Source: Cohaesibacter haloalkalitolerans
GTDB taxonomy: Bacteria; Pseudomonadota; Alphaproteobacteria; Rhizobiales; Cohaesibacteraceae
Length of the DNA: 64,000 nt
Direction: 5' to 3'
Assembly (NCBI RefSeq): GCF_003574655.1
Contig: NZ_QNUM01000001.1
Location: forward strand, 434,001 to 498,000
Positions within the stretch are counted from its first letter, which is position 1; each line of letters begins with the position of its first letter. The position numbers were made by a program, and so were the translations under genes. Under the pieces are notes generated by a model. It was not told the DNA's origin. It did no database searches and was given only the letters and a program-made list of their open reading frames with translations. Positions 39,914-50,409 of this stretch are shown one piece after another.

Positions 39914-40015
39914 CAATAAAGACAGTTTCATATATTAGATAACTTGCGGCTTCTGCGCTATAGTGTTTTCTCCCACCTCACAGAAGAGCCTCAGAAAGAG
40001 TCCCAGGAAGAGTTA

Positions 40016-41290
40016 ATGTCTACCACCTACCCCGATCCCGGAGAGATTGCTCCGGGGTTAGACGCCAACGCCGAGTCCTTCGGTCACCCCGCTTCACTCC
40101 AGCCGTCTCATGTCCAGTCCGGTACCGGCGAATTCCGTCGCATTTCCATCGCCTTCTTTCTGGCTGGTTTTGCGACCTTTGCACTGCTCTATTGTGTGCA
40201 GCCGCTGTTGCCGCTGTTTGCACAGTATTTCGACGTGCTGCCAGCCACCAGTTCGCTGCCGCTTTCCCTGACGCTCGGGTGTCTTGCCCTGTCGATCATG
40301 ATCATGGGCGCGCTGTCCCAGCAACTGGGGCGCAAGGGGCTGATGCTCTGTTCGATGGTTTCCGCCGCCGCACTCAACCTGTTGGCCTCCATCGCGCCGG
40401 ATTGGAATTCGCTGCTGATCGCGCGGGCGCTGGAAGGGGTGGCGCTCGGTGGCCTGCCCGCTGTGGCGATGGCCTATCTGGCCGAGGAGATAGATCCGAA
40501 ACATCTGCCCAAGGCGATGGGCATCTATATTGCCGGAACCTCGGTTGGTGCCATGCTCGGGCGCGTGGGGATGGGGTCGCTGACGGAATTCATTTCCTGG
40601 CAGCAGGCCATGGAAGTTCTTGGCGTGCTGTGTCTGATGGCTGCTGGCGGTTTTGCTTTGCTGTTGCCGCCTTCGCGCAATTTCACCAAGACCAGCCATG
40701 CCGGTCTCGCTTTCCATCTGCAGACCTGGCTGGGGCATCTCAAGAACCCGGCGCTGCAGAAGGTCTACGGGCTTGGCTTTTGTCTGACCGGTGTCTTCTC
40801 CACGGTCTATAACTATCTGTCGTTTCGCCTGTTCGAGCCGCCCTATAGCATGAGCCCTTTCACGGTCAGTCTTATGTTTCTGCTGTTCCTGTTCGGAACG
40901 GTTGCCTCGTCCTATACCGGTGCGCTGACCCTGCGCTTTGGCGCCAAGCGGCTGCTGCTCGGCTCCTTCGGGCTGACCTTTGTCGGCGTGCTGATCACGC
41001 TGCCCGGTTCGCTGTTCCTGATCTGCGTCGGCATCGCCTTTACCACCGTTGGCTTCTTCATCGGCCATTCGGTAGCGAGTGGGCTGGTCGGGCTGTCGGC
41101 CAAAGGCAACAAGGGCCATGCCTCCTCGCTCTATCTGCTGTTCTACTACATGGGCGCGAGCCTCGTGGGCTATGTCGGTGGCTGGTTCTGGCATCTGGGC
41201 CACTGGCCAGGTCTTGCGGCTCTCACCTGTCTTCTGGCTCTGGCTGCCCTTATCATCTCGTCCCGGGTCCGGGTTTCCCGTCCGGCCTAG
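40016..41290 (+). CDS. MFS transporter, YnfM-like
   Basis: A 424-residue major-facilitator permease with twelve predicted helices after a 45-residue polar N-terminus. The opening TFALLYCVQPLLPLFAQYFD, then LPLSLTLGCLALSIMIMG and GRKGLMLCS resemble E. coli YnfM, an inner-membrane exporter of the arabinose-efflux type. The substrate is unknown. The start ATG 40016 has AGGAAG five bases upstream; the frame is open to 39944, where it would enter the regulatory region. It is divergent from a LysR regulator, as ynfM-type genes often are, and ends at a bidirectional terminator. Confidence 0.88.
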   Translation: MSTTYPDPGEIAPGLDANAESFGHPASLQPSHVQSGTGEFRRISIAFFLAGFATFALLYCVQPLLPLFAQYFDVLPATSSLPLSLTLGCLALSIMIMGALSQQLGRKGLMLCSMVSAAALNLLASIAPDWNSLLIARALEGVALGGLPAVAMAYLAEEIDPKHLPKAMGIYIAGTSVGAMLGRVGMGSLTEFISWQQAMEVLGVLCLMAAGGFALLLPPSRNFTKTSHAGLAFHLQTWLGHLKNPALQKVYGLGFCLTGVFSTVYNYLSFRLFEPPYSMSPFTVSLMFLLFLFGTVASSYTGALTLRFGAKRLLLGSFGLTFVGVLITLPGSLFLICVGIAFTTVGFFIGHSVASGLVGLSAKGNKGHASSLYLLFYYMGASLVGYVGGWFWHLGHWPGLAALTCLLALAALIISSRVRVSRPA

Positions 41291-41378
41291 GCCGTAAAGG
41301 GGCCGGTGGCGCCTTTCAAGCGAGTGCTTGCTGTCGCAGTTGAGGCTTCTGTGCCTTGCCATATCGAAGAGTGCATTG

Positions 41379-41410
41379 AAAAAGCCGGATGGTTTCCCAC
41401 CCGGCTTTTT
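41379..41410. terminator. Bidirectional terminator, MFS gene and leuB
   Basis: AAAAAGCCGG pairs exactly with CCGGCTTTTT. It lies between the convergent MFS (stop 41290) and leuB (stop 41438) genes and has T-runs for both directions. Confidence 0.9.
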
Positions 41411-41437
41411 GTCTGTTCACCGTAAAGGTGCGTTGGC

Positions 41438-42544
41438 TTATGCCAGAGCCTTCAGTTCGGCCAGAACGGCTGCGCCCATTTCGGATGTGGTGACAACGGT
41501 GTCGCCTTCCTTGGCGATGTCGCCGGTCCTCAGGCCCTTTTCCAGAACGGTTGCAATGGCCTTGTCGATCATGTCGGCTTCCTTGCCCATGTCGAAGCTG
41601 TAGCGCAGGGCCATGGAGAAGGAGGCGATCATGGCGATCGGGTTGGCAATGCCCTTGCCAGCGATGTCCGGTGCAGAGCCGTGAACCGGCTCATACATGG
41701 CCTTGCGCTGGCCGGTCTTCTCGTCCGGAGCGCCGAGCGAGGCGGATGGCAGCATGCCGAGGGAACCGGTCAGCATGGCAGCCACGTCGGACAGGATGTC
41801 GCCGAACAGGTTGTCGCAGAGGATGACGTCGAACTGCTTGGGACGACGGACCAGCTGCATGGCGCAGTTGTCGGCCAGAATGTGCTCAAGCGGGGTTTCC
41901 GGATATTCCTTGGCGCCGATGCGGGTGACGACTTCTTTCCAGAGCAGGCCGGATTTCATCACATTGTGCTTTTCGGCAGAGGCCACGCGGTTGGAGCGGG
42001 TCTTGGCAAGATCAAAGGCCACGCGGGTGATGCGTTCGATTTCGCTGGTGGTGTAGAGCTGGGTGTCGACAGCGCGTTTCTGGCCGTCTTCCAGCGTGAC
42101 GATTTCCTTCGGCTCGCCGAAATAGACGCCACCGGTCAGCTCGCGCACGATCAGGATGTCGAGACCTTCAACCAGTTCCTTCTTCAGCGAAGAGCTGTCG
42201 GCCAGCGCCGGGTAGCAGAGGGCCGGGCGCAGGTTGGCAAACAGCCCCAGATCCTTGCGCAGACGCAGCAGTGCGGCTTCCGGGCGGGCTTCGTAAGGAA
42301 CGTCAGCCCATTTCGGGCCACCCACGGCGCCGAAGATGACCGCGTCGGCAGCCAATGCCTTGGCCATGTCCTCTTCCGAGATGGCAACGCCATAGGCATC
42401 ATAGGCGCAGCCGCCCACCAGACCATCATCGGTTTCAAAGCTCACGTCGAGATTGGCGTTCATCCAGTCGATGATCGCCTTCACTTCGTTCATGATTTCA
42501 GGGCCAATGCCGTCGCCGGGCAGGAGAAAGAGTTTGTGGGACAT
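41438..42544 (-). CDS. leuB: 3-Isopropylmalate dehydrogenase
   Basis: A 368-residue NAD-dependent dehydrogenase for the third step of leucine synthesis. Seen: LLPGDGIGPEIM at the start, RELTGGVYFGEP with the substrate Arg, LFANLRPALCYP, and the Mg-binding DNLFGDILSD with the conserved Asp pair, then VHGSAPDIAGKGIANP. Length is normal. CGGAAG lies six bases from the ATG. leuD is 307 bases upstream on the same strand but ends at its own terminator, so leuB is probably transcribed separately. Confidence 0.97.
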   Translation of the reverse strand: MSHKLFLLPGDGIGPEIMNEVKAIIDWMNANLDVSFETDDGLVGGCAYDAYGVAISEEDMAKALAADAVIFGAVGGPKWADVPYEARPEAALLRLRKDLGLFANLRPALCYPALADSSSLKKELVEGLDILIVRELTGGVYFGEPKEIVTLEDGQKRAVDTQLYTTSEIERITRVAFDLAKTRSNRVASAEKHNVMKSGLLWKEVVTRIGAKEYPETPLEHILADNCAMQLVRRPKQFDVILCDNLFGDILSDVAAMLTGSLGMLPSASLGAPDEKTGQRKAMYEPVHGSAPDIAGKGIANPIAMIASFSMALRYSFDMGKEADMIDKAIATVLEKGLRTGDIAKEGDTVVTTSEMGAAVLAELKALA

Positions 42545-42697
42545 GATTTACTTCCGAGGTTGGATTTCGCTTCGAATTTGCCTGTTACGCGCAAGGATCG
42601 AAAAGATTGGATGCGTTCAGCATTCGATTAATACCGATCGGACGCGATTGCAAGGTCTAAGCCGCTCACAGCGGGGCTGCAACTGCTATCTGATACA

Positions 42698-42725
42698 AAA
42701 AAGCCAGACCTTGCGGACTGGCTTT
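42698..42725 (-). terminator. Terminator downstream of leuD
   Basis: AAAGCCAG pairs with CTGGCTTT around a ten-base loop; the minus strand continues into six T. It lies about 127 bases past the leuD stop. Confidence 0.85.
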
Positions 42726-42851
42726 GATGTCATGTGTCGGACGCTGTGGTCAAAACGTTTGAGGCTCAAAACGCCTGAGGGCTAGATCTCCTGTCGCCGC
42801 GAGACCGGAGCGAACGGGGCTATCCACGCGCATTCGGCCTTGCAAAATGCT

Positions 42852-43457
42852 CTAGACCCAGGGGCGTTCCTTGACCATCGCTGTTTCGAATTTGTCGACA
42901 TTGGCGATCTTTTCCATGGTCAGACCGATGTCGTCGAGGCCTTCGAGCAGGCATTTCTTCTTGAACGGGTCGAGCTCGAAGCTCAGTTCGCCGCCATCCG
43001 GGCCCTTGATGACCTGATTTTCAAGATCGATGGTCAGAGTAGCGTTGGAGCCGCGGGAAGCATCGTCCATCAGCTTGGCGTGATCTTCTTCGCTGACAAT
43101 GATCGGCAGGATGCCGTTCTTGAAGCTGTTGTTGTAGAAGATGTCGGCAAAGCTCGTGGAGATGACGCATTTGATGCCGAAGTCCTTCAGCGCCCACGGG
43201 GCATGCTCACGGGAAGAGCCGCAGCCGAAGTTGTCGCCAGCCACGATGATTTCCGCCTTGCGGTAGGCGTCCTGATTGAGAACGAAGTCCTTGTTCTCGG
43301 TGCCATCCTCGTTGTAGCGCATTTCGTAGAACAGATCGACGCCAAGGCCCGAGCGCTTGATGGTCTTCAGGAACTGCTTCGGGATGATCATGTCCGTGTC
43401 GATGTTGATCAACGGCATGGGTGCCGCAACAGCGGTCAAGGTGGTGAATTTTTCCAT
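42852..43457 (-). CDS. leuD: 3-Isopropylmalate dehydratase small subunit
   Basis: A 201-residue swivel-domain subunit that pairs with LeuC to isomerise 2- to 3-isopropylmalate. Family motifs: [16 protein letters not shown] and [20 protein letters not shown], where [10 protein letters not shown] forms the substrate loop. leuC is not in this window. It lies 20 bases downstream of argC on the same strand and has AAGGA ten bases before the ATG, so argC and leuD are very likely one operon. A terminator follows. Confidence 0.96.
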
Positions 43458-43477
43458 TGTCTGGCGGTCCTTCCGAT

Positions 43478-44434
43478 TTAGAGATCGGCAATGGTGAGAC
43501 CGGTAGTCTCGTCAATGCCCATCATGATGTTCATGTTCTGAATGGCAGCGCCGGAGGCGCCTTTGCCCAGATTGTCGTAAACTGCCAGCAAGACGGCCTG
43601 TCCGGTTGCGTCATTGCCGTGAATGTGCAGGTGAAGCGAGTTGGTGCCGTTGAGCCGTTCCGGCGTGATCGCTTCAAGGCGCCCTGCCGATTCCAGCGGG
43701 GCAACCCTTACGAAGACTTCATCCCTGTAGCGCCGCTCGAGGCAGGCGTGCAGGTCGGCCAGCTTGACCTTGGTGTCGAGCGCCCAGAGGTTGAGCGGCA
43801 CCGCGTCGATCATGCCCTGTGCGTAGAGGCCGACGGCAGGCTGGAAGACCGGCGGATGGTCGAGCCCGGCATGGAAGGTCATTTCCGGCACATGCTTGTG
43901 GGCCAGTGTCAGACCATAGGGCCAGTAAGGTACGGTCACCGGGTCCTCTTGGCGTTCATAGTCGGCAATCATGCCCTTGCCGCCACCGGAATAGCCCGAG
44001 ACGGCATTCAGCGTTGCCGGGAAGGTGGCCGGAATGATGCCTGCGTCAACGAGCGGCCGCATGATGGCGATATAGCCTTGCGGATAGCAGCCGGGGTTGG
44101 CAACCCGCTTGGACGCGGCGATCTTGTCGCGCTGATCCGGAGCGAGTTCGGCAAAGCCATAGGTCCAGCCCTCGGCGGTCCGATGGGCCGTGGAGGCGTC
44201 GATGACGCGCGTGTCCTTGCTCTCGATCAGGCTGACCGCTTCAATGGCTGCCGCATCGGGCAGGCAGAGAATGGCGATGTCCGCCTCGTTGAGCATCTGC
44301 GCCCGTGCTTCGGCATCCTTGCGCAGATTTTCAGGCAAGCGCAGGAGCTTGATATCGTCGCGGGCCTCAAGGCGGGTCCGAATCTGCAATCCGGTTGTGC
44401 CTGCTTCGCCGTCGATGAATAGTTTTGTCGTCAT
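43478..44434 (-). CDS. argC: N-acetyl-gamma-glutamyl-phosphate reductase, type 2
   Basis: A 318-residue NADPH-dependent reductase for the third step of arginine synthesis. It belongs to the shorter type 2 group (about 310 residues), known from alphaproteobacteria and Pseudomonas. Seen: [16 protein letters not shown] (cofactor site), the catalytic Cys in [23 protein letters not shown] and AHKHVPEM with the general base His. ATG 44434 opens the standard [11 protein letters not shown]; the frame continues 14 codons further. It leads directly into leuD, which couples arginine and leucine enzymes in one transcript. Confidence 0.95.
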
Positions 44435-44532
44435 GGTCTTCTGCCTGATAGCCTGAATGGGCGGTTGATTGCTCACGGGGTGGGGGAAGTGATCCGTGTC
44501 TGGATCCTGATTACAGCACTATGGGTCTTTTG

Positions 44533-44805
44533 TCATCGTGTGAAATGAGTGACAAGCCACAGAACCAGAAAGATTGCGAAAATAACGCCACCAATGCGTC
44601 CGATGCGGGTGCCCCAGATCTCGATCGGATCACTCGGGTCCGCATCGCCGGCGCCAAGGTGCTGCCTTGCCCGGTTTGCCGTGCGGGCAAAGGCCGAGGT
44701 GCCAAGGGCTTCGCCTTCCATGTCGACACGGTCGAGAATGCGCTGGGCTTCCCGGGCCTTGTCGTCCTGGCGTTGGTGCCGCGATTTTGGGTCATCTTCT
44801 GTCAT
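44533..44805 (-). CDS. Small single-helix membrane protein, unknown
   Basis: A 90-residue protein: a charged N-terminal 45 residues rich in Arg, Asp and Gln, then IEIWGTRIGRIGGVIFAIFL and a hydrophobic helix to the C-terminus (residues 68-86). The block TSAFARTANRARQHLGAGDA before the helix is a pattern I recall from an uncharacterised family in Hyphomicrobiales. The cytoplasmic N-terminal part with a C-terminal anchor suggests a tail-anchored protein. The start has AAAGAG upstream. It lies 98 bases upstream of argC on the same strand and may be part of the argC-leuD transcript. Confidence 0.75.
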   Translation of the reverse strand: MTEDDPKSRHQRQDDKAREAQRILDRVDMEGEALGTSAFARTANRARQHLGAGDADPSDPIEIWGTRIGRIGGVIFAIFLVLWLVTHFTR

Positions 44806-45009
44806 GATTGCTCTTTAACCTGCTTTTCTGTGATTGTTCAAGCGCAGAACAGCATCTCGGGGTTCCCGGGGCTGTTCTTTTCGGTCGATTCCGTACCACG
44901 ATCAGCAAATTGTGAGTATTTTGTCTTGACTTGCGCGCACCCATACCGCAAAAGGCTTGACGTGAACCGAGAGGGTTGGGCACTCGCTGCCGCACGTGAG
45001 TTTGTGATA

Positions 45010-45123
45010 ATGGCACTCAAGATGAAAACAGCAATGATGCGCAAGACCGCTGGCGTCCTCGCCGGTGCCTTCACTGCTGGCCAGACCACACTCACAACAA
45101 CCACTACCACCACCAAGGTTTAG
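45010..45123 (+). CDS. Threonine-rich leader peptide upstream of asd
   Basis: A 37-codon frame starting at ATG 45010 (other in-frame ATGs at 45022, 45034 and 45037) and ending at TAG 45121. Its end reads QTTLTTTTTTTKV: nine Thr codons in ten positions (acc, aca, then aca, aca, acc, act, acc, acc, acc after one Leu). This is the design of an attenuation leader such as E. coli ThrL, where scarce Thr-tRNA stalls the ribosome. Three hairpins follow (see 45125-45228) and asd begins 125 bases after the leader stop. The SD (GTGAG, nine bases before 45010) is weak. Asd makes the common precursor of threonine, methionine and lysine, so a Thr-sensing leader is biochemically sensible. Function is inferred. 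Confidence 0.7.
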   Translation: MALKMKTAMMRKTAGVLAGAFTAGQTTLTTTTTTTKV

Positions 45124-45124
45124 G

Positions 45125-45228
45125 CCCCTCTCGCTCCCTGTCTGGCTTCCCCCAGGGATGTGAGGGGAGCGAAACCGCCCGCCAGCGCGCAAGCGACAGG
45201 CCGGGTGGCAACCTCGGGGGAGCTTGCG
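45125..45228 (+). promoter_or_regulatory. Competing RNA hairpins between Thr leader and asd
   Basis: P1: CCCCTC (45125-45130) and CCCTG (45136-45140) pair with CAGGG (45153-45157) and GAGGGG (45162-45167). P2: CCGCCCG (45175-45181) pairs with CGGGTGG (45202-45208). P3: CGCAAGC (45188-45194) pairs with GCTTGCG (45222-45228) and ends a few bases before the asd SD. P2 and P3 interleave and so exclude each other. There is no T-run, so control could be by Rho or at translation rather than by an intrinsic terminator. Confidence 0.5.
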
Positions 45229-45247
45229 GATCAGGAGATCATTGAAA

Positions 45248-46291
45248 ATGGGTTATAAAGTTGCAGTCGTCGGGGCCACGGGCAATGTCGGTCGCGAAAT
45301 GCTTGACATTCTTTCCGAACGCGGGTTTCCCGCAGATGAGGTCGTGGCATTGGCTTCCAGCCGTTCCAAAGGCAAGGAAGTGTCCTTCGGTGACAAGATT
45401 CTGAAATGTCAGGTGCTGGACAATTACGATTTTTCCGACACCGATTTCTGTCTGATGTCCGCTGGTGGCAGCACCTCTGCCGAATGGGCTCCCAAGATCG
45501 CAGCTCAGGGCTGCATCGTCGTCGACAACAGCTCCCAGTGGCGCTATGACGAGCGGATCCCGCTGATCGTTCCGGAAGTGAACGCTCCGGTGCTGGAAGA
45601 GTGGATCAAGAAGAAAGATCGCATCAATATCATCGCCAACCCGAACTGCTCGACGGCGCAGCTGCTCGTGGCTCTGAAGCCCCTGCATGACGCGGCAACC
45701 ATCAAGCGTATCGTGGTTGCGACCTACCAGTCTGTTTCCGGCGCTGGCAAGGAAGCCATGGACGAGCTGTTCACCCAGACCCGCGCTGTGCTGGTTTCCG
45801 ATCCGATCGAAGTGCACAAGTTCACCAAGCGCATCGCCTACAATGTGATCCCGCACATCGATAAATTCATGGAAGACGGCTACACCAAGGAAGAATGGAA
45901 GGTTGTTGCCGAAACCAAGAAGATGCTCGATCCGAAGATCAAGGTGACCTGCACCGCCGTGCGCGTTCCGGTGTTCATATCCCATGCCGAAGCGGTCAAC
46001 ATCGAGTTTGAAAAGCCGATCACGGCTGACGAAGCCCGCGATATCCTGCGTGAAGCACCAGGCTGTCTGGTCATCGACAAGCGTGAAGATGGCGGCTACA
46101 TCACCCCGGCAGAAGCCGCTGGTGAAGATGCAACCTACATCTCCCGTATCCGTGAAGATGCGACGGTCGAGAATGGGCTCAACATCTGGGTTGTTTCCGA
46201 CAACCTGCGCAAGGGTGCTGCTCTCAACACCATTCAGATTGCCGAAGCGCTGATCAACCGCGGTCTGGTCAAGCCACGCGCTGAAGCCTGA
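45248..46291 (+). CDS. asd: Aspartate-semialdehyde dehydrogenase
   Basis: A 347-residue NADP enzyme that makes aspartate semialdehyde for lysine/diaminopimelate, methionine and threonine. Seen: VAVVGATGNVGREML (residues 5-19), SSRSKGK, the catalytic Cys134 in NPNCSTAQ, the Gln in TYQSVSGAGKEAMDEL, and the active-site His and Arg in CTAVRVPVFISHAEAVN. ATG 45248 has AGGAG about ten bases upstream and opens MGYKVAVVGATG; the frame runs upstream eight codons without family content. It is preceded by a Thr-rich leader and followed by its own terminator, so it is monocistronic. Confidence 0.97.
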   Translation: MGYKVAVVGATGNVGREMLDILSERGFPADEVVALASSRSKGKEVSFGDKILKCQVLDNYDFSDTDFCLMSAGGSTSAEWAPKIAAQGCIVVDNSSQWRYDERIPLIVPEVNAPVLEEWIKKKDRINIIANPNCSTAQLLVALKPLHDAATIKRIVVATYQSVSGAGKEAMDELFTQTRAVLVSDPIEVHKFTKRIAYNVIPHIDKFMEDGYTKEEWKVVAETKKMLDPKIKVTCTAVRVPVFISHAEAVNIEFEKPITADEARDILREAPGCLVIDKREDGGYITPAEAAGEDATYISRIREDATVENGLNIWVVSDNLRKGAALNTIQIAEALINRGLVKPRAEA

Positions 46292-46318
46292 TTGGCAGCC
46301 TCACGGCCTCGATAGTTT

Positions 46319-46353
46319 AAAACCGGTCTGGTTCTGAACCAGGCCGGTTTTTT
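46319..46353 (+). terminator. Terminator downstream of asd
   Basis: AAACCGGTCTGGTT pairs with AACCAGGCCGGTTT (one G-U pair) around a CTG loop, followed by T-rich sequence; 28 bases past the asd stop. Confidence 0.9.
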
Positions 46354-46394
46354 CATGCTTGGTGCTGCGGGCGCGCAAGGACCATGGGACGAGC

Positions 46395-47045
46395 CTAGGC
46401 GTTCACCTTCAGGAAGGTGCCCTGTTCTTCCTCGTAATATTCCAGCTCACCGGTCGAGATGTCGAACCATGCGCCATGCAAAGCCAGCTTGCCTTCCAGC
46501 ACGCGGGTCTTGATGAACTGATAGGAATAGAGATTTTCCAGTGAATGGATGATGGAAGACCGCTCCAGCAGACCGCCGTGGTCCAGCTCGGGGCGATTGA
46601 GTGCCTTGTAGCGGATCGGATTGTCTGCCGCCTGCAACTGGCCGGACCATTTGCCGATATAGTTGCTTTCGGAAAGCGGCTCGGACTCGTCGGCGGAAAT
46701 GTAGCTCTTGACGCCACCGCAACGGCCATGGCCCATGATGACGATATGCTCGACCTTGAGGCCGTTTACGGCAAATTCCAGCGCCGCCGTGGTGCCGTGT
46801 ATGCCGTCGTCCTGGGATGACTTGTGTGGCACGATGTTGGCCACGTTGCGCATGACGAAGATTTCGCCTGGTCCCGAGTCGAAGATGATTTCCGGCGCAG
46901 CCCGGCTGTCGCAGCAGCCCACGAGCATGATGTTCGGGTTCTGGCCCTTCTCGGCCAGCTTTTCATATCGTCCCTGTTCGGTCGGGAAACGTCCCTTTTT
47001 GAACTCGGCATAGCCTTCGAGCAAGCGTTCAGGTAATTGGGCCAT
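46395..47045 (-). CDS. can: Beta-class carbonic anhydrase
   Basis: A 216-residue zinc enzyme that interconverts CO2 and bicarbonate. Zinc and catalytic residues are visible as CCDSR (Cys45, Asp46, Arg48) and GHGRCGG (His106, Cys109), with RNVANIVP between. The plant/Rhizobium-type length and C-terminus are normal. ATG 47045 has AAAGAGGA four bases upstream. It is convergent with asd; asd-can-pdxY adjacency is common in Hyphomicrobiales. It may be the last gene of a run with pdxY, which ends 188 bases upstream. Confidence 0.95.
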   Translation of the reverse strand: MAQLPERLLEGYAEFKKGRFPTEQGRYEKLAEKGQNPNIMLVGCCDSRAAPEIIFDSGPGEIFVMRNVANIVPHKSSQDDGIHGTTAALEFAVNGLKVEHIVIMGHGRCGGVKSYISADESEPLSESNYIGKWSGQLQAADNPIRYKALNRPELDHGGLLERSSIIHSLENLYSYQFIKTRVLEGKLALHGAWFDISTGELEYYEEEQGTFLKVNA

Positions 47046-47232
47046 CGTATCCTCTTTCGTCGCGTACTGGTTTTTCCTTATGACATCTCGCGCCGGACCG
47101 ATCAAAAATCAAGGGTGAGGAAGCCTTTTGTCCTGCTTTTTACCGGTGCTGGGTCGAGATGGCCGGAAAAATGGTCCCAAAACCGACTCACGACTGGCCT
47201 GTCAAGCGGGCTTGAACGGTGCTGTGTCGCCG

Positions 47233-48201
47233 TCAGTTCAAGGGTTCCGGCTTCTTTGGTGGTCTCCTCACCGCCGTCAGTTGCGGACCGGCGCCGATCT
47301 GGCGCATGTTGACCATGGCCATCGGCGTATGGAAACGATCGGAGAAGCGGGCAACTTCCAGATCGCGATAGCCCATGCTGGCCGAGCGCGTAACCACTTC
47401 GAGGACGCCGCTCGAGGCTTTCTTGAGAGCCAGTTCGTCCGAAGCGCCGCTGAGCTTGTGGCCAAGGAACAGCGACGCCATCATGTCGCCGGTGCCATTT
47501 TGCGGATTGGGAATGGCCGGGTGCTCGCACATGATGGGCAGGGGGGCCTTGCCGGTCTCTTCGGCGTGAATGAGCAGATTGGCAATGGCATTGCGCATCA
47601 GGGCAAAGGCGCTGGTGATCAGGGTGGTCTTGCGTCCGAGCTTCCTGGCCTGCTCGATCAGGCCGTTGTTGTTGCTTTCCTCCGAGCCGGTCAGCCAGTT
47701 CAGCTCGAAACGGTTCGGCGAAATGATGTCGGCGCGCGGAATCAGTTGGTCGCGGATGGCAACGGCGATGGCCTCCTTCATGTAGAGGCCTTCCTTGTCG
47801 CCGATCACCGGGTCGCAGAAATAGAGCCCGTCCGGGTTGGCCCGCTTGTAGGCGTCCACCAGCCCGGCGATGGCCTCCACTTGCTCAAGCGAGCCCAGAT
47901 AGCCCGAGTAGATGGCCGAGACCGATGCGAAGTCGGGATGGCGTGCGAGATCCTCAAGACTTCTGGCAAACAGGGCAGGGTCGATTTTCTGGATGGTCGA
48001 GGGGCCGTGGCCGGGGTGCCATGGCATGATGACGGTGGGTACTTCCCAGACCGGGAAGCCCAGACGTTCAAGCGTGAAGGCGGCGGCGCGGTTGCCCACC
48101 GCGCCAGCCATGACATGGGAAGAGATGATGATGATCGGGCGGGCGACAAAGGGCGCCTCGCTCTTGGTCGGGTTGCCCTTGCTGGGCATGAAGTCGGTCA
48201 T
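47233..48201 (-). CDS. pdxY: Pyridoxal kinase
   Basis: A 322-residue kinase of the ribokinase fold that phosphorylates pyridoxal (B6 salvage). Seen: IIIISSHVMAGAVGNRAAAF at residues 23-42 (substrate loop), the VIGDKEGLYM phosphate region, SPNRFELNWLTG and the catalytic anion-hole motif NGTGDMMASLFLGH with the base Asp. A 20-residue polar N-terminal extension precedes the core. It lies 24 bases downstream of the FAD-oxidoreductase gene, hence probably one operon with it. Confidence 0.93.
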   Translation of the reverse strand: MTDFMPSKGNPTKSEAPFVARPIIIISSHVMAGAVGNRAAAFTLERLGFPVWEVPTVIMPWHPGHGPSTIQKIDPALFARSLEDLARHPDFASVSAIYSGYLGSLEQVEAIAGLVDAYKRANPDGLYFCDPVIGDKEGLYMKEAIAVAIRDQLIPRADIISPNRFELNWLTGSEESNNNGLIEQARKLGRKTTLITSAFALMRNAIANLLIHAEETGKAPLPIMCEHPAIPNPQNGTGDMMASLFLGHKLSGASDELALKKASSGVLEVVTRSASMGYRDLEVARFSDRFHTPMAMVNMRQIGAGPQLTAVRRPPKKPEPLN

Positions 48202-48225
48202 GCGATCATCTCTTCGTCGTCTCGG

Positions 48226-49392
48226 TCAGATGATATTGAATTCTCTGACGGGTTTGTTGTTCGCTATCCTTTCATAGCCGAAGATCGAGAGGTCAAGCGA
48301 GCGATATTCACCATAGAGGAAAAGTTCTCCAATGCCGCGTCCCGCACCCGGCCCGTGCTGCAGACCATGGCCGGAATAGCCGGCGTTGATGTAGAAGTTG
48401 GTGATCTCGGGATGGGCGCCGATGAAAGCATTCTGATCGAGGGTGCAATATTCGTAATGACCGGCCCAGGCATTGGTCATCTTGATGGCGTCAAAGCCCG
48501 GCATGCGGTTGTAGAGCGCAGGCCAGATGACTTCATCGAACAGATCGTAATGGGGATCATGGTCCTCATAGTCGGCAGCCGGGTCCTCGATCGGCGGGCA
48601 GCCGGAGATGAAGAACTCGCCTTCGGGACGGATATAGACGCCAGTGGTGTCGGTGATCAGCGGCATGTTGGGATGCGGCTTCTTGTTGTCGATGACAAAG
48701 ATCGTGCGCTTGCGCGGCTCTATCGGCAGGGGAATGTCGAGTAGGGCTGCGACCTTGCCTGCGTTGGCACCGGCGCAGTTGACCACGGCACCGCAGGCGA
48801 TGGTGTCGCCGTTGTCGAGCTTGACGGCAGTAACCTTGCTGCCCTGCTTCTCCATGGCGACCACGGTGCCCTTGATGAATTCCGCACCAGCGGCAATGGC
48901 GCCCTTGCGGACCAGATCAAGGAACATGTGGGCGTCGAACCAGCCTTCACCGGAGCGGCCATAGGCACCGGCTGCCAGATCCTCGACATTGAGCCAGGGG
49001 AAGGTCTTCTTCATCTCATCGGGAGACATCAGCTCGATGTCGGCGCCGCATGCGATCTGGGTCTTGTAATTGTTCTGCAGGATCGGCAGGCCAGCCTCGG
49101 AGGCCAGAATGAGATAGCCGCCCTCGTGGTAGGCGATATCTGCATCAGGACCGAAACGATCCTTCAGCTCACTGAAGAATTGCAGCCCGTACTGGGACAG
49201 GGCTATGTTCTCGGGCGTTGAGAACTGCTGGCGAATCGACGCCGCCGAAAGTGTGGTTGAACTGTTGGCATAGGTGGGGTCCTTTTCGACCACCAGAACT
49301 GACCCTTCGAAGCCGAGATCCTTCTTCAGGAAATAGGCCACAGAGGCACCCATGATTGCGCCACCAATAATGACGAGATCTGCCTGTTTCAT
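48226..49392 (-). CDS. FAD-dependent oxidoreductase, DAO family
   Basis: A 388-residue flavoenzyme of the D-amino-acid oxidase/sarcosine oxidase-like family. Seen: the dinucleotide motif IIGGAIMGASVAYFL at residues 8-22 with Glu36 in VVEKDP, AASIRQQFSTPEN, the VVNCAGANAGKVA strand, and the C-terminal FAD motif FYINAGYSGHGLQHGPGAGR. Acts on a secondary or tertiary amine or amino acid; the substrate is unknown. CGGAA lies six bases from the ATG. It is followed after 24 bases by pdxY and is divergent from the CoA-lyase gene. Confidence 0.9.
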   Translation of the reverse strand: MKQADLVIIGGAIMGASVAYFLKKDLGFEGSVLVVEKDPTYANSSTTLSAASIRQQFSTPENIALSQYGLQFFSELKDRFGPDADIAYHEGGYLILASEAGLPILQNNYKTQIACGADIELMSPDEMKKTFPWLNVEDLAAGAYGRSGEGWFDAHMFLDLVRKGAIAAGAEFIKGTVVAMEKQGSKVTAVKLDNGDTIACGAVVNCAGANAGKVAALLDIPLPIEPRKRTIFVIDNKKPHPNMPLITDTTGVYIRPEGEFFISGCPPIEDPAADYEDHDPHYDLFDEVIWPALYNRMPGFDAIKMTNAWAGHYEYCTLDQNAFIGAHPEITNFYINAGYSGHGLQHGPGAGRGIGELFLYGEYRSLDLSIFGYERIANNKPVREFNII

Positions 49393-49521
49393 TTGCTGTT
49401 CCGCTTTTCTTCTTGTCTTCCTTCAGGGGAGGTTGGCCTAAGGAAGGGGATGGCTAGGTGCGCGTTTGTGTTTTAAGTTGTCGCGCGCTCGCATATTGCC
49501 TCAAAGATCGGAGAAATTTCA

Positions 49522-50409
49522 ATGTCTTTCAGACCGCGCCGAACAGCTCTTTACATGCCCGGTTCCAACGCTCGTGCCCTCGAAAAAGCCCGTGGCCTTG
49601 ATGTGGATGTGCTGCTGCTGGACCTGGAGGATTCCGTAGCCATGGACATGAAGGACGTGGCACGAAAACAGGTCGCCGAGGCGGTGAAGGCCGGTGGCTT
49701 CGGACACCGGGAAGTGGTGATCCGGATCAACGGACTGGAAACCCCGTGGGGAGAGGCCGATCTGGCCGCAGCCATCGAGGCCAAGCCGGATGCCGTGCTC
49801 ATCCCCAAGGTCAACAGCGCCGAGGATGTCTTCACCGTCGGGCGCAAAATGAACGATGCCGGTGCGGATCAGTCCATCAAGATCTGGGCGATGATGGAGA
49901 CCCCGCAGGGCATGCTTCGAGCCCTTGAAATTGCTGCTGCAACGCAGGAATATCACGGCCGTCGTCTGAGCTGTTTCATTTTGGGAACCAATGACTTGGT
50001 CAAGGAGACCCGGGTTGCCATGGTGGCCGGGCGAGCTCCGGTCTATGGCTGGTTGATGAACTGTCAGGCTGCCGCCAGAAGCTATGATCTCGACGTCATC
50101 GACGGGGTGTTCAACCACTTCAATGATGCCGACGGCTTCGTTGCCGAGTGCGAACAGGGCAAGGAAATGGGGATGGACGGCAAGACCATCATTCACCCCA
50201 AACAGATTGCCGACTGCAACCGGATCTTCTCACCCGACGAAACGGACGTGGCATGGGGTCGCCGAGTGATTGAGGCCTTTGATGCACCGGAGAATCAGTC
50301 CAAGAATGTCATGACGATTGATGGAAAAATGGTCGAGCGGCTGCATGCGGAAATGGCACGTCGGCTGGTCGACATTGCCGAGGCCATTGCTGCCCGGGAT
50401 GAGGAATAG
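49522..50409 (+). CDS. CoA-ester lyase (HpcH/HpaI aldolase family)
   Basis: A 295-residue TIM-barrel lyase related to malyl-CoA/(S)-citramalyl-CoA lyases and CitE. Seen: RRTALYMPGSNARALEKARG (CoA-phosphate site), LDLEDSVA with the Mg-binding Asp region, the catalytic METPQGML, the Mg ligand in FILGTNDLVKE, and KTIIHPKQIADCN. Likely cleaves or forms a C4-C5 hydroxyacyl-CoA such as malyl- or methylmalyl-CoA. CGGAG precedes the ATG. It is two bases upstream of the DUF1737 gene and near a MaoC-type hydratase, a grouping conserved with sdhCDAB in Hyphomicrobiales. Confidence 0.92.
   Translation: MSFRPRRTALYMPGSNARALEKARGLDVDVLLLDLEDSVAMDMKDVARKQVAEAVKAGGFGHREVVIRINGLETPWGEADLAAAIEAKPDAVLIPKVNSAEDVFTVGRKMNDAGADQSIKIWAMMETPQGMLRALEIAAATQEYHGRRLSCFILGTNDLVKETRVAMVAGRAPVYGWLMNCQAAARSYDLDVIDGVFNHFNDADGFVAECEQGKEMGMDGKTIIHPKQIADCNRIFSPDETDVAWGRRVIEAFDAPENQSKNVMTIDGKMVERLHAEMARRLVDIAEAIAARDEE

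Follow-up and report, generated by a model that had tools for sequence, protein, structure and literature searches.

A threonine-rich leader frame in front of asd in Cohaesibacter and its recurrence across Hyphomicrobiales

Asd, aspartate-semialdehyde dehydrogenase, stands at the branch leading to lysine, threonine and methionine. In the thr attenuator of E. coli (ThrL; Rfam Thr_leader), a threonine-pathway gene is preceded by a short leader frame that contains consecutive threonine codons and is accompanied by overlapping hairpins. A short frame with a threonine run likewise lies just upstream of asd in the window, the 64,000-nt stretch of Cohaesibacter haloalkalitolerans DNA analyzed here (features are on the forward strand unless stated otherwise). 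The locus raises the question of whether this frame is the leader peptide of an attenuator on asd, which amino acids it would sense, and through which step it would act.

The frame (45010–45123) runs from ATG 45010 through 37 codons to the stop codon TAG at 45121–45123 and has the tail QTTLTTTTTTTKV; its translation ends in TTLTTTTTTT, nine threonines in ten residues. A sequence-only reading had described this frame, its threonine run, the stop, the hairpins and the asd Shine–Dalgarno (SD) sequence, and all of them were confirmed at their places; the frame and its threonine run before asd are a real observation. ATG 45010 was picked as the probable start over 45022, 45037 and 45040, and the Thr/Lys control codons were placed at 45085–45117 from the tail composition of 88 leaders of the same order. 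A search of the own genome for six consecutive ACN codons hit the leader run, in two overlapping matches, and a single further site, whose bases belong to a longer frame that translates them as Asp codons. The backwards control of this pattern gave 35 matches, so the genome-wide ACN count cannot serve as a measure of rarity. Upstream of the two homoserine dehydrogenase genes of the same genome, the best frame held only 2 Thr in 12.

The asd gene itself (45248–46291, ATG 45248) was identified by TIGR01296 (443.8 bits, cut-off 324.2) and is preceded by an SD-like AGGAG at 45233–45237, where CAGGAG is invariant across 17 aligned genomes of the genus. It looks monocistronic because a terminator-like site follows at 46328–46347 and the next gene lies on the opposite strand. 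Upstream of the leader, a candidate promoter (TTGACT, 17-nt spacer, CAAAAG; 44926–44954) is conserved in the genus: CTTGACTT and GCAAAA were both present in 16 of 18 genomes, and the aligned slice ends there in the other two. Promoter prediction returned no site at 44926–44954, and the candidate −10 element departs from the sigma-70 consensus. Between this candidate and the leader start, AACCGAGAGGGTT (44965–44977) may form a hairpin with a GAGA loop, in which AGAGGG is invariant in the 18 genus genomes. A 90-residue frame on the reverse strand (44533–44805), between argC and asd, has a C-terminus that is hydrophobic by eye, and no NCBIfam match to it was found.

The spread of the leader was evaluated in genomes of the order and class, with a leader defined as a frame whose tail includes 12 consecutive codons with 4 or more Thr and whose stop lies 60–200 nt before asd. 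In the order sample, asd was matched in 148 of 150 genomes and upstream DNA was obtained from 144 (145 sequences, one genome having two), four partial asd matches and one 138-nt sequence being left out. A Thr leader preceded asd in 88 of these 144 genomes, compared with 0.9% of 2880 dinucleotide shuffles; at least 6 Thr in the tail were found in 58 of 144 genomes and in none of the 2880 shuffles. The 88 leaders represent 28 families and 47 genera (labels transferred by hand into the script) of an order sample that spanned 52 families. Within the genus Cohaesibacter, a Thr-rich frame occupied the place upstream of asd in 18/18 genomes; the aligned first ATG is absent from four of them, whose leader starts elsewhere. 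The recurrence of a short frame with a Thr run across Hyphomicrobiales, which the sequence-only reading had named as one part of its check, was thus borne out. In 60 genomes from other orders of the class, mostly from the top of the asd match list, a Thr leader was present in 6, against 0.9% of shuffles. It was also present in 77 of 80 named loci (1.2% of shuffles), these being the best 80 of 569 and rich in Rhizobiaceae, and hence not an independent sample. By the threshold of at least 4 Thr, the frame was absent from 56 of the 144 order genomes and 54 of the 60 other class genomes. A crude regular expression placed the end of leuB upstream of asd in 11/56 order and 22/54 class genomes lacking the leader and in 5/88 and 3/6 of those carrying it, which is no more than a hint.

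The leaders share their tails more than their beginnings: the part before the tail varies strongly between families, and Thr and Lys are kept in the tail. Across the 88 leaders, the last 12 codons (1056 codons) comprise 46% Thr and 16% Lys, whereas the preceding stretch of up to 12 codons holds 19% and 4.6%; Ile and Met were not enriched in the tails over the preceding part. All four Thr codons are in use, and off-frame readings of the tails contain little Thr. AAN codons in these tails encode Lys 168 times and Asn never, and 32 Lys and one Asn were counted in the leader tails of two other alphaproteobacterial orders, although all such Lys/Asn and Thr counts stem from genomes related to one another and do not represent independent events. 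In nine close genomes, variable sites of the leader fell on the three codon positions 10, 13 and 17 times, showing no strong third-position bias, and the tail was conserved also at third positions. This composition suggests that the leader probably senses both end products, threonine and lysine. The earlier proposal that threonine supply controls Asd therefore agrees with the recurring Thr codons (88/144) but is probably too narrow on its own, since Lys codons are enriched as well. The window's own tail contains a single Lys, so that in the genus Cohaesibacter the signal would be mostly threonine.

The orders differ in what follows the leader. No T-run terminator was found between leader and asd in the window, and a hairpin with a T-run occupied this interval in only 3 of the 88 order leaders and in 1 of the 77 named loci with leaders (among the best 80 of 569); the missing T-run in the sequence-only reading thus holds beyond the window. 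In two other alphaproteobacterial orders, by contrast, a hairpin with a T-run followed the Thr leader in 11/11 and 8/8 cases. Leaderless genomes of these orders had a terminator in 0/5 and 1/6 cases, and the single exception carries a frame with 3 Thr (16/17 and 14/16 genomes were used; in the others asd was truncated or represented solely by a distant paralogue). In the window's order (47 genus representatives), the best local hairpin began a median 20 nt past the stop, with 0.9 T in the next 8 nt, compared with 26.5 nt and 4.2 T in the other orders (18 of 19 leaders); the mean z of the hairpin against shuffles was −0.65 and −2.7, respectively. By sequence, the Thr leaders of the two other orders would be textbook attenuators whose output is intrinsic termination. 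On the same measures, the hairpin in the window's order appears similarly placed but less distinct, its T-run lost or never there, and its output is probably something other than intrinsic termination. Of the ribosome-mediated attenuation layout that the sequence-only reading had assigned to this locus, the leader peptide, its position and its Thr codons stood; the textbook T-run terminator of ThrL-type attenuators, present in 19/19 leaders of the two other orders, is missing from the window.

The RNA between stop and asd was then described by its strands. A pyrimidine-rich strand, A1 (45125–45140), lies directly after the stop and is conserved in the genus (17 of its 18 genomes aligned); A2 (GGCTTCCCCC, 45144–45153) follows about 24 nt after the stop, and the purine-rich strand B (45153–45170) is the 3′ arm common to the hairpins A1:B and A2:B. 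A second hairpin (45175–45208) separates B from the purine element C (GGGGGAGC, 45216–45223), which is complementary to A2 and lies upstream of the asd SD. In the window, the long pairing joins 45125–45140 with 45153–45167 and the competing one joins bases within 45144–45153 with 45164–45170; because strand B is common to both, A1:B and A2:B are mutually exclusive in the genus. The folding energy of the region is ordinary (z −1.06 and −1.13), so the hairpins rest on conservation instead. In the genus alignments, which took in 17 of 18 genomes, the arms of the 45175–45208 hairpin keep their complementarity by eye while the sequence varies. The three hairpins read earlier, two of them exclusive, are thus present as pairings in the sequence, but flank covariation is weak for A2:B (p = 0.04, from 10 distinct genus sequences and without phylogenetic correction) and was not found for A2:C within the genus (p = 0.71).

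Across the order, 33 of 47 genus representatives had their best CTCTCCCC-like match at +18 to +28 counted from the stop; the window's own best match lies at +7, inside A1. A GGGGAGAG-like match of at least 7 occurred in 31 of 47 representatives against 15% of base shuffles, the motif having been derived from the same sequences. A distal A:C helix was rejected by a covariation test that used 46 of the 47 representatives, own partners doing no better than swapped ones (mean ranks 0.485 and 0.46). Separately, in 58 distinct, mostly Rhizobiaceae sequences (last 150 nt), GCTCTCTCCCCGG does not vary downstream of the leader and AGAGAGC hardly varies ahead of asd; a new RNA family model could be built from these 58 sequences.

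Nascent-RNA folding was computed for eight genus members with the ribosome edge at different positions. With the edge before A1, A1:B (0.55–1.0) exceeded A2:B in 8/8 members, and with the edge at stop+15, A2:B dominated (0.86–0.92) in 8/8; this edge removes most of A1, so that the loss of A1:B there is largely built in, and at stop+12 the remaining A1 was still paired to B in 5/8. In the full RNA with the edge at stop+15, A2:C rose above the stalled state in 8/8 members together with the pairing of C, and the asd SD gained pairing relative to the stalled state in only 6/8. Order-wide, the result was opposite to that of the genus: moving the ribosome to stop+15 lowered the pairing of C with the post-stop strand in 33 and raised it in 10 of 88 leaders. 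SD accessibility was computed with the ribosome edge at the Thr codons, at the stop and absent; SD opening at the stop became harder in 31/88 and easier in 32/88, and SD sequestration was rejected as a general rule, SD pairing going up in 21/88 and down in 22/88. A ribosome-position switch between hairpins is plausible from this modeling. Under the proposed mechanism, asd expression would be adjusted to the availability of charged threonyl-tRNA and, probably, lysyl-tRNA. A ribosome waiting at the Thr/Lys codons or reaching the stop would leave the post-stop strand free or covered, and this would decide which of the overlapping hairpins forms, as far as sequence and computed folding can suggest.

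The frame might instead encode a small protein, or be an upstream frame without Thr/Lys sensing whose Thr run is a compositional accident, as the run consists of a simple ACN repeat, the genome has many backwards CAN runs (the 35 control matches), and codon-position bias is weak within the genus. However, shuffled DNA gave such frames in 0.9% of cases against 88/144, every AAN codon in the 88 tails is Lys, off-frame tail readings hold little Thr, and terminators track leaders in the two other orders; we consider an accident highly improbable. The frame is very probably the leader peptide of a ribosome-mediated attenuator on asd, a judgment that concerns the leader as such and not its output step.

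For the output in the window's order, we lean towards either translational control of asd or termination by Rho, without a choice between them; the sequence-only reading had named the same two levels. In translational attenuation, A1 or A2 would base-pair to C and the asd SD whenever neither the A:B hairpins nor a stalled ribosome keeps them occupied. The A pyrimidine elements are complementary to the purine elements of C and the SD, and in Rhizobiaceae the invariant GCTCTCT has its complement in the nearly constant AGAGAGC immediately ahead of asd; yet own A:C pairs were no better than swapped pairs, and with SD accessibility lacking a consistent direction in the 88 leaders, a translation-level mechanism by sequestering of the SD has found no support so far. 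We regard this possibility as real but rather doubtful. Alternatively, the leader ribosome would cover or expose a C-rich Rho loading site at the Thr codons and the post-stop strand, and with Thr and Lys abundant, Rho would stop transcription ahead of asd. The T-run terminator seen in just 3/88 order leaders agrees with this, as does the composition of the leader tail together with the 45 nt that follow the stop (mean C 0.379, G 0.243), although this C-richness is largely a consequence of the Thr codons, and the GGGGAG element beside the asd SD is left unexplained; Rho-dependent output seems somewhat unlikely, if still a serious candidate. Taking the orders together, we tentatively propose, at just short of an even chance, that one alphaproteobacterial asd leader reads Thr and Lys and that its peptide part stayed while its output changed, being intrinsic termination in some orders and terminator-less (translation or Rho) in Hyphomicrobiales.

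The asd leader resembles E. coli ThrL in having a Thr-run leader frame upstream of a pathway gene and overlapping hairpins. It differs in the gene (asd instead of thrABC), in the second amino acid (Lys here, Ile in ThrL), in the T-run terminator, and in having no Rfam match: no Rfam family, including the lysine riboswitch, Thr_leader and T-box, matched above its gathering score in window positions 40000–50000 or in nine related loci. At E up to 10, five matches appeared, all below the gathering score and at chance level, none of them to those three families. A closer counterpart is SEP5 of S. meliloti, which, according to the available part of its description (PMC10117765), has six Thr and three Lys codons near its 3′ end, is translated, sits in the 5′ UTR of a gene named aspartate dehydrogenase, and was proposed in 2023 as a possible leader peptide conserved only in Sinorhizobium; no RNA structures are described for it in that part. 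Two Ensifer asd leaders end in KTTAKTTTKTV, with six Thr and three Lys as in SEP5, and we infer that SEP5 is the asd leader of Sinorhizobium. Unlike SEP5 as published there (PMC10117765), the asd leaders span 28 families of the order. Another alphaproteobacterial leader frame with codons for its sensed amino acid is uORFC-8-2 of Rhodobacterales cysS, with Cys codons and, in the portion of the source available (PMC8632094), a consensus that closes with a U run like that of an intrinsic terminator. The main text of PMC1273637, PMC2965389 and PMC8632094, as far as available, does not mention asd, and a Vibrio natriegens study that treats two asd genes describes no asd leader peptide in its accessible part (PMC12925634). 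The literature covered held no account of an asd leader peptide besides SEP5, and nothing on the breadth of the leader or on the contrast between orders; Vitreschak 2004, the likeliest survey, lay outside its scope. The earlier remark that a Thr leader on asd was not known as described consequently needs correction for S. meliloti SEP5 (PMC10117765, as partly available) and stands for the breadth and the order contrast.

A leader reading both threonine and lysine would explain how many Hyphomicrobiales fit the Asd branch to demand. If the proposed change of output is true, this attenuator would have been caught in a change of mechanism. The comparison of orders with T-run terminators against one nearly without them makes it possible to study directly how the output of an attenuator changes.
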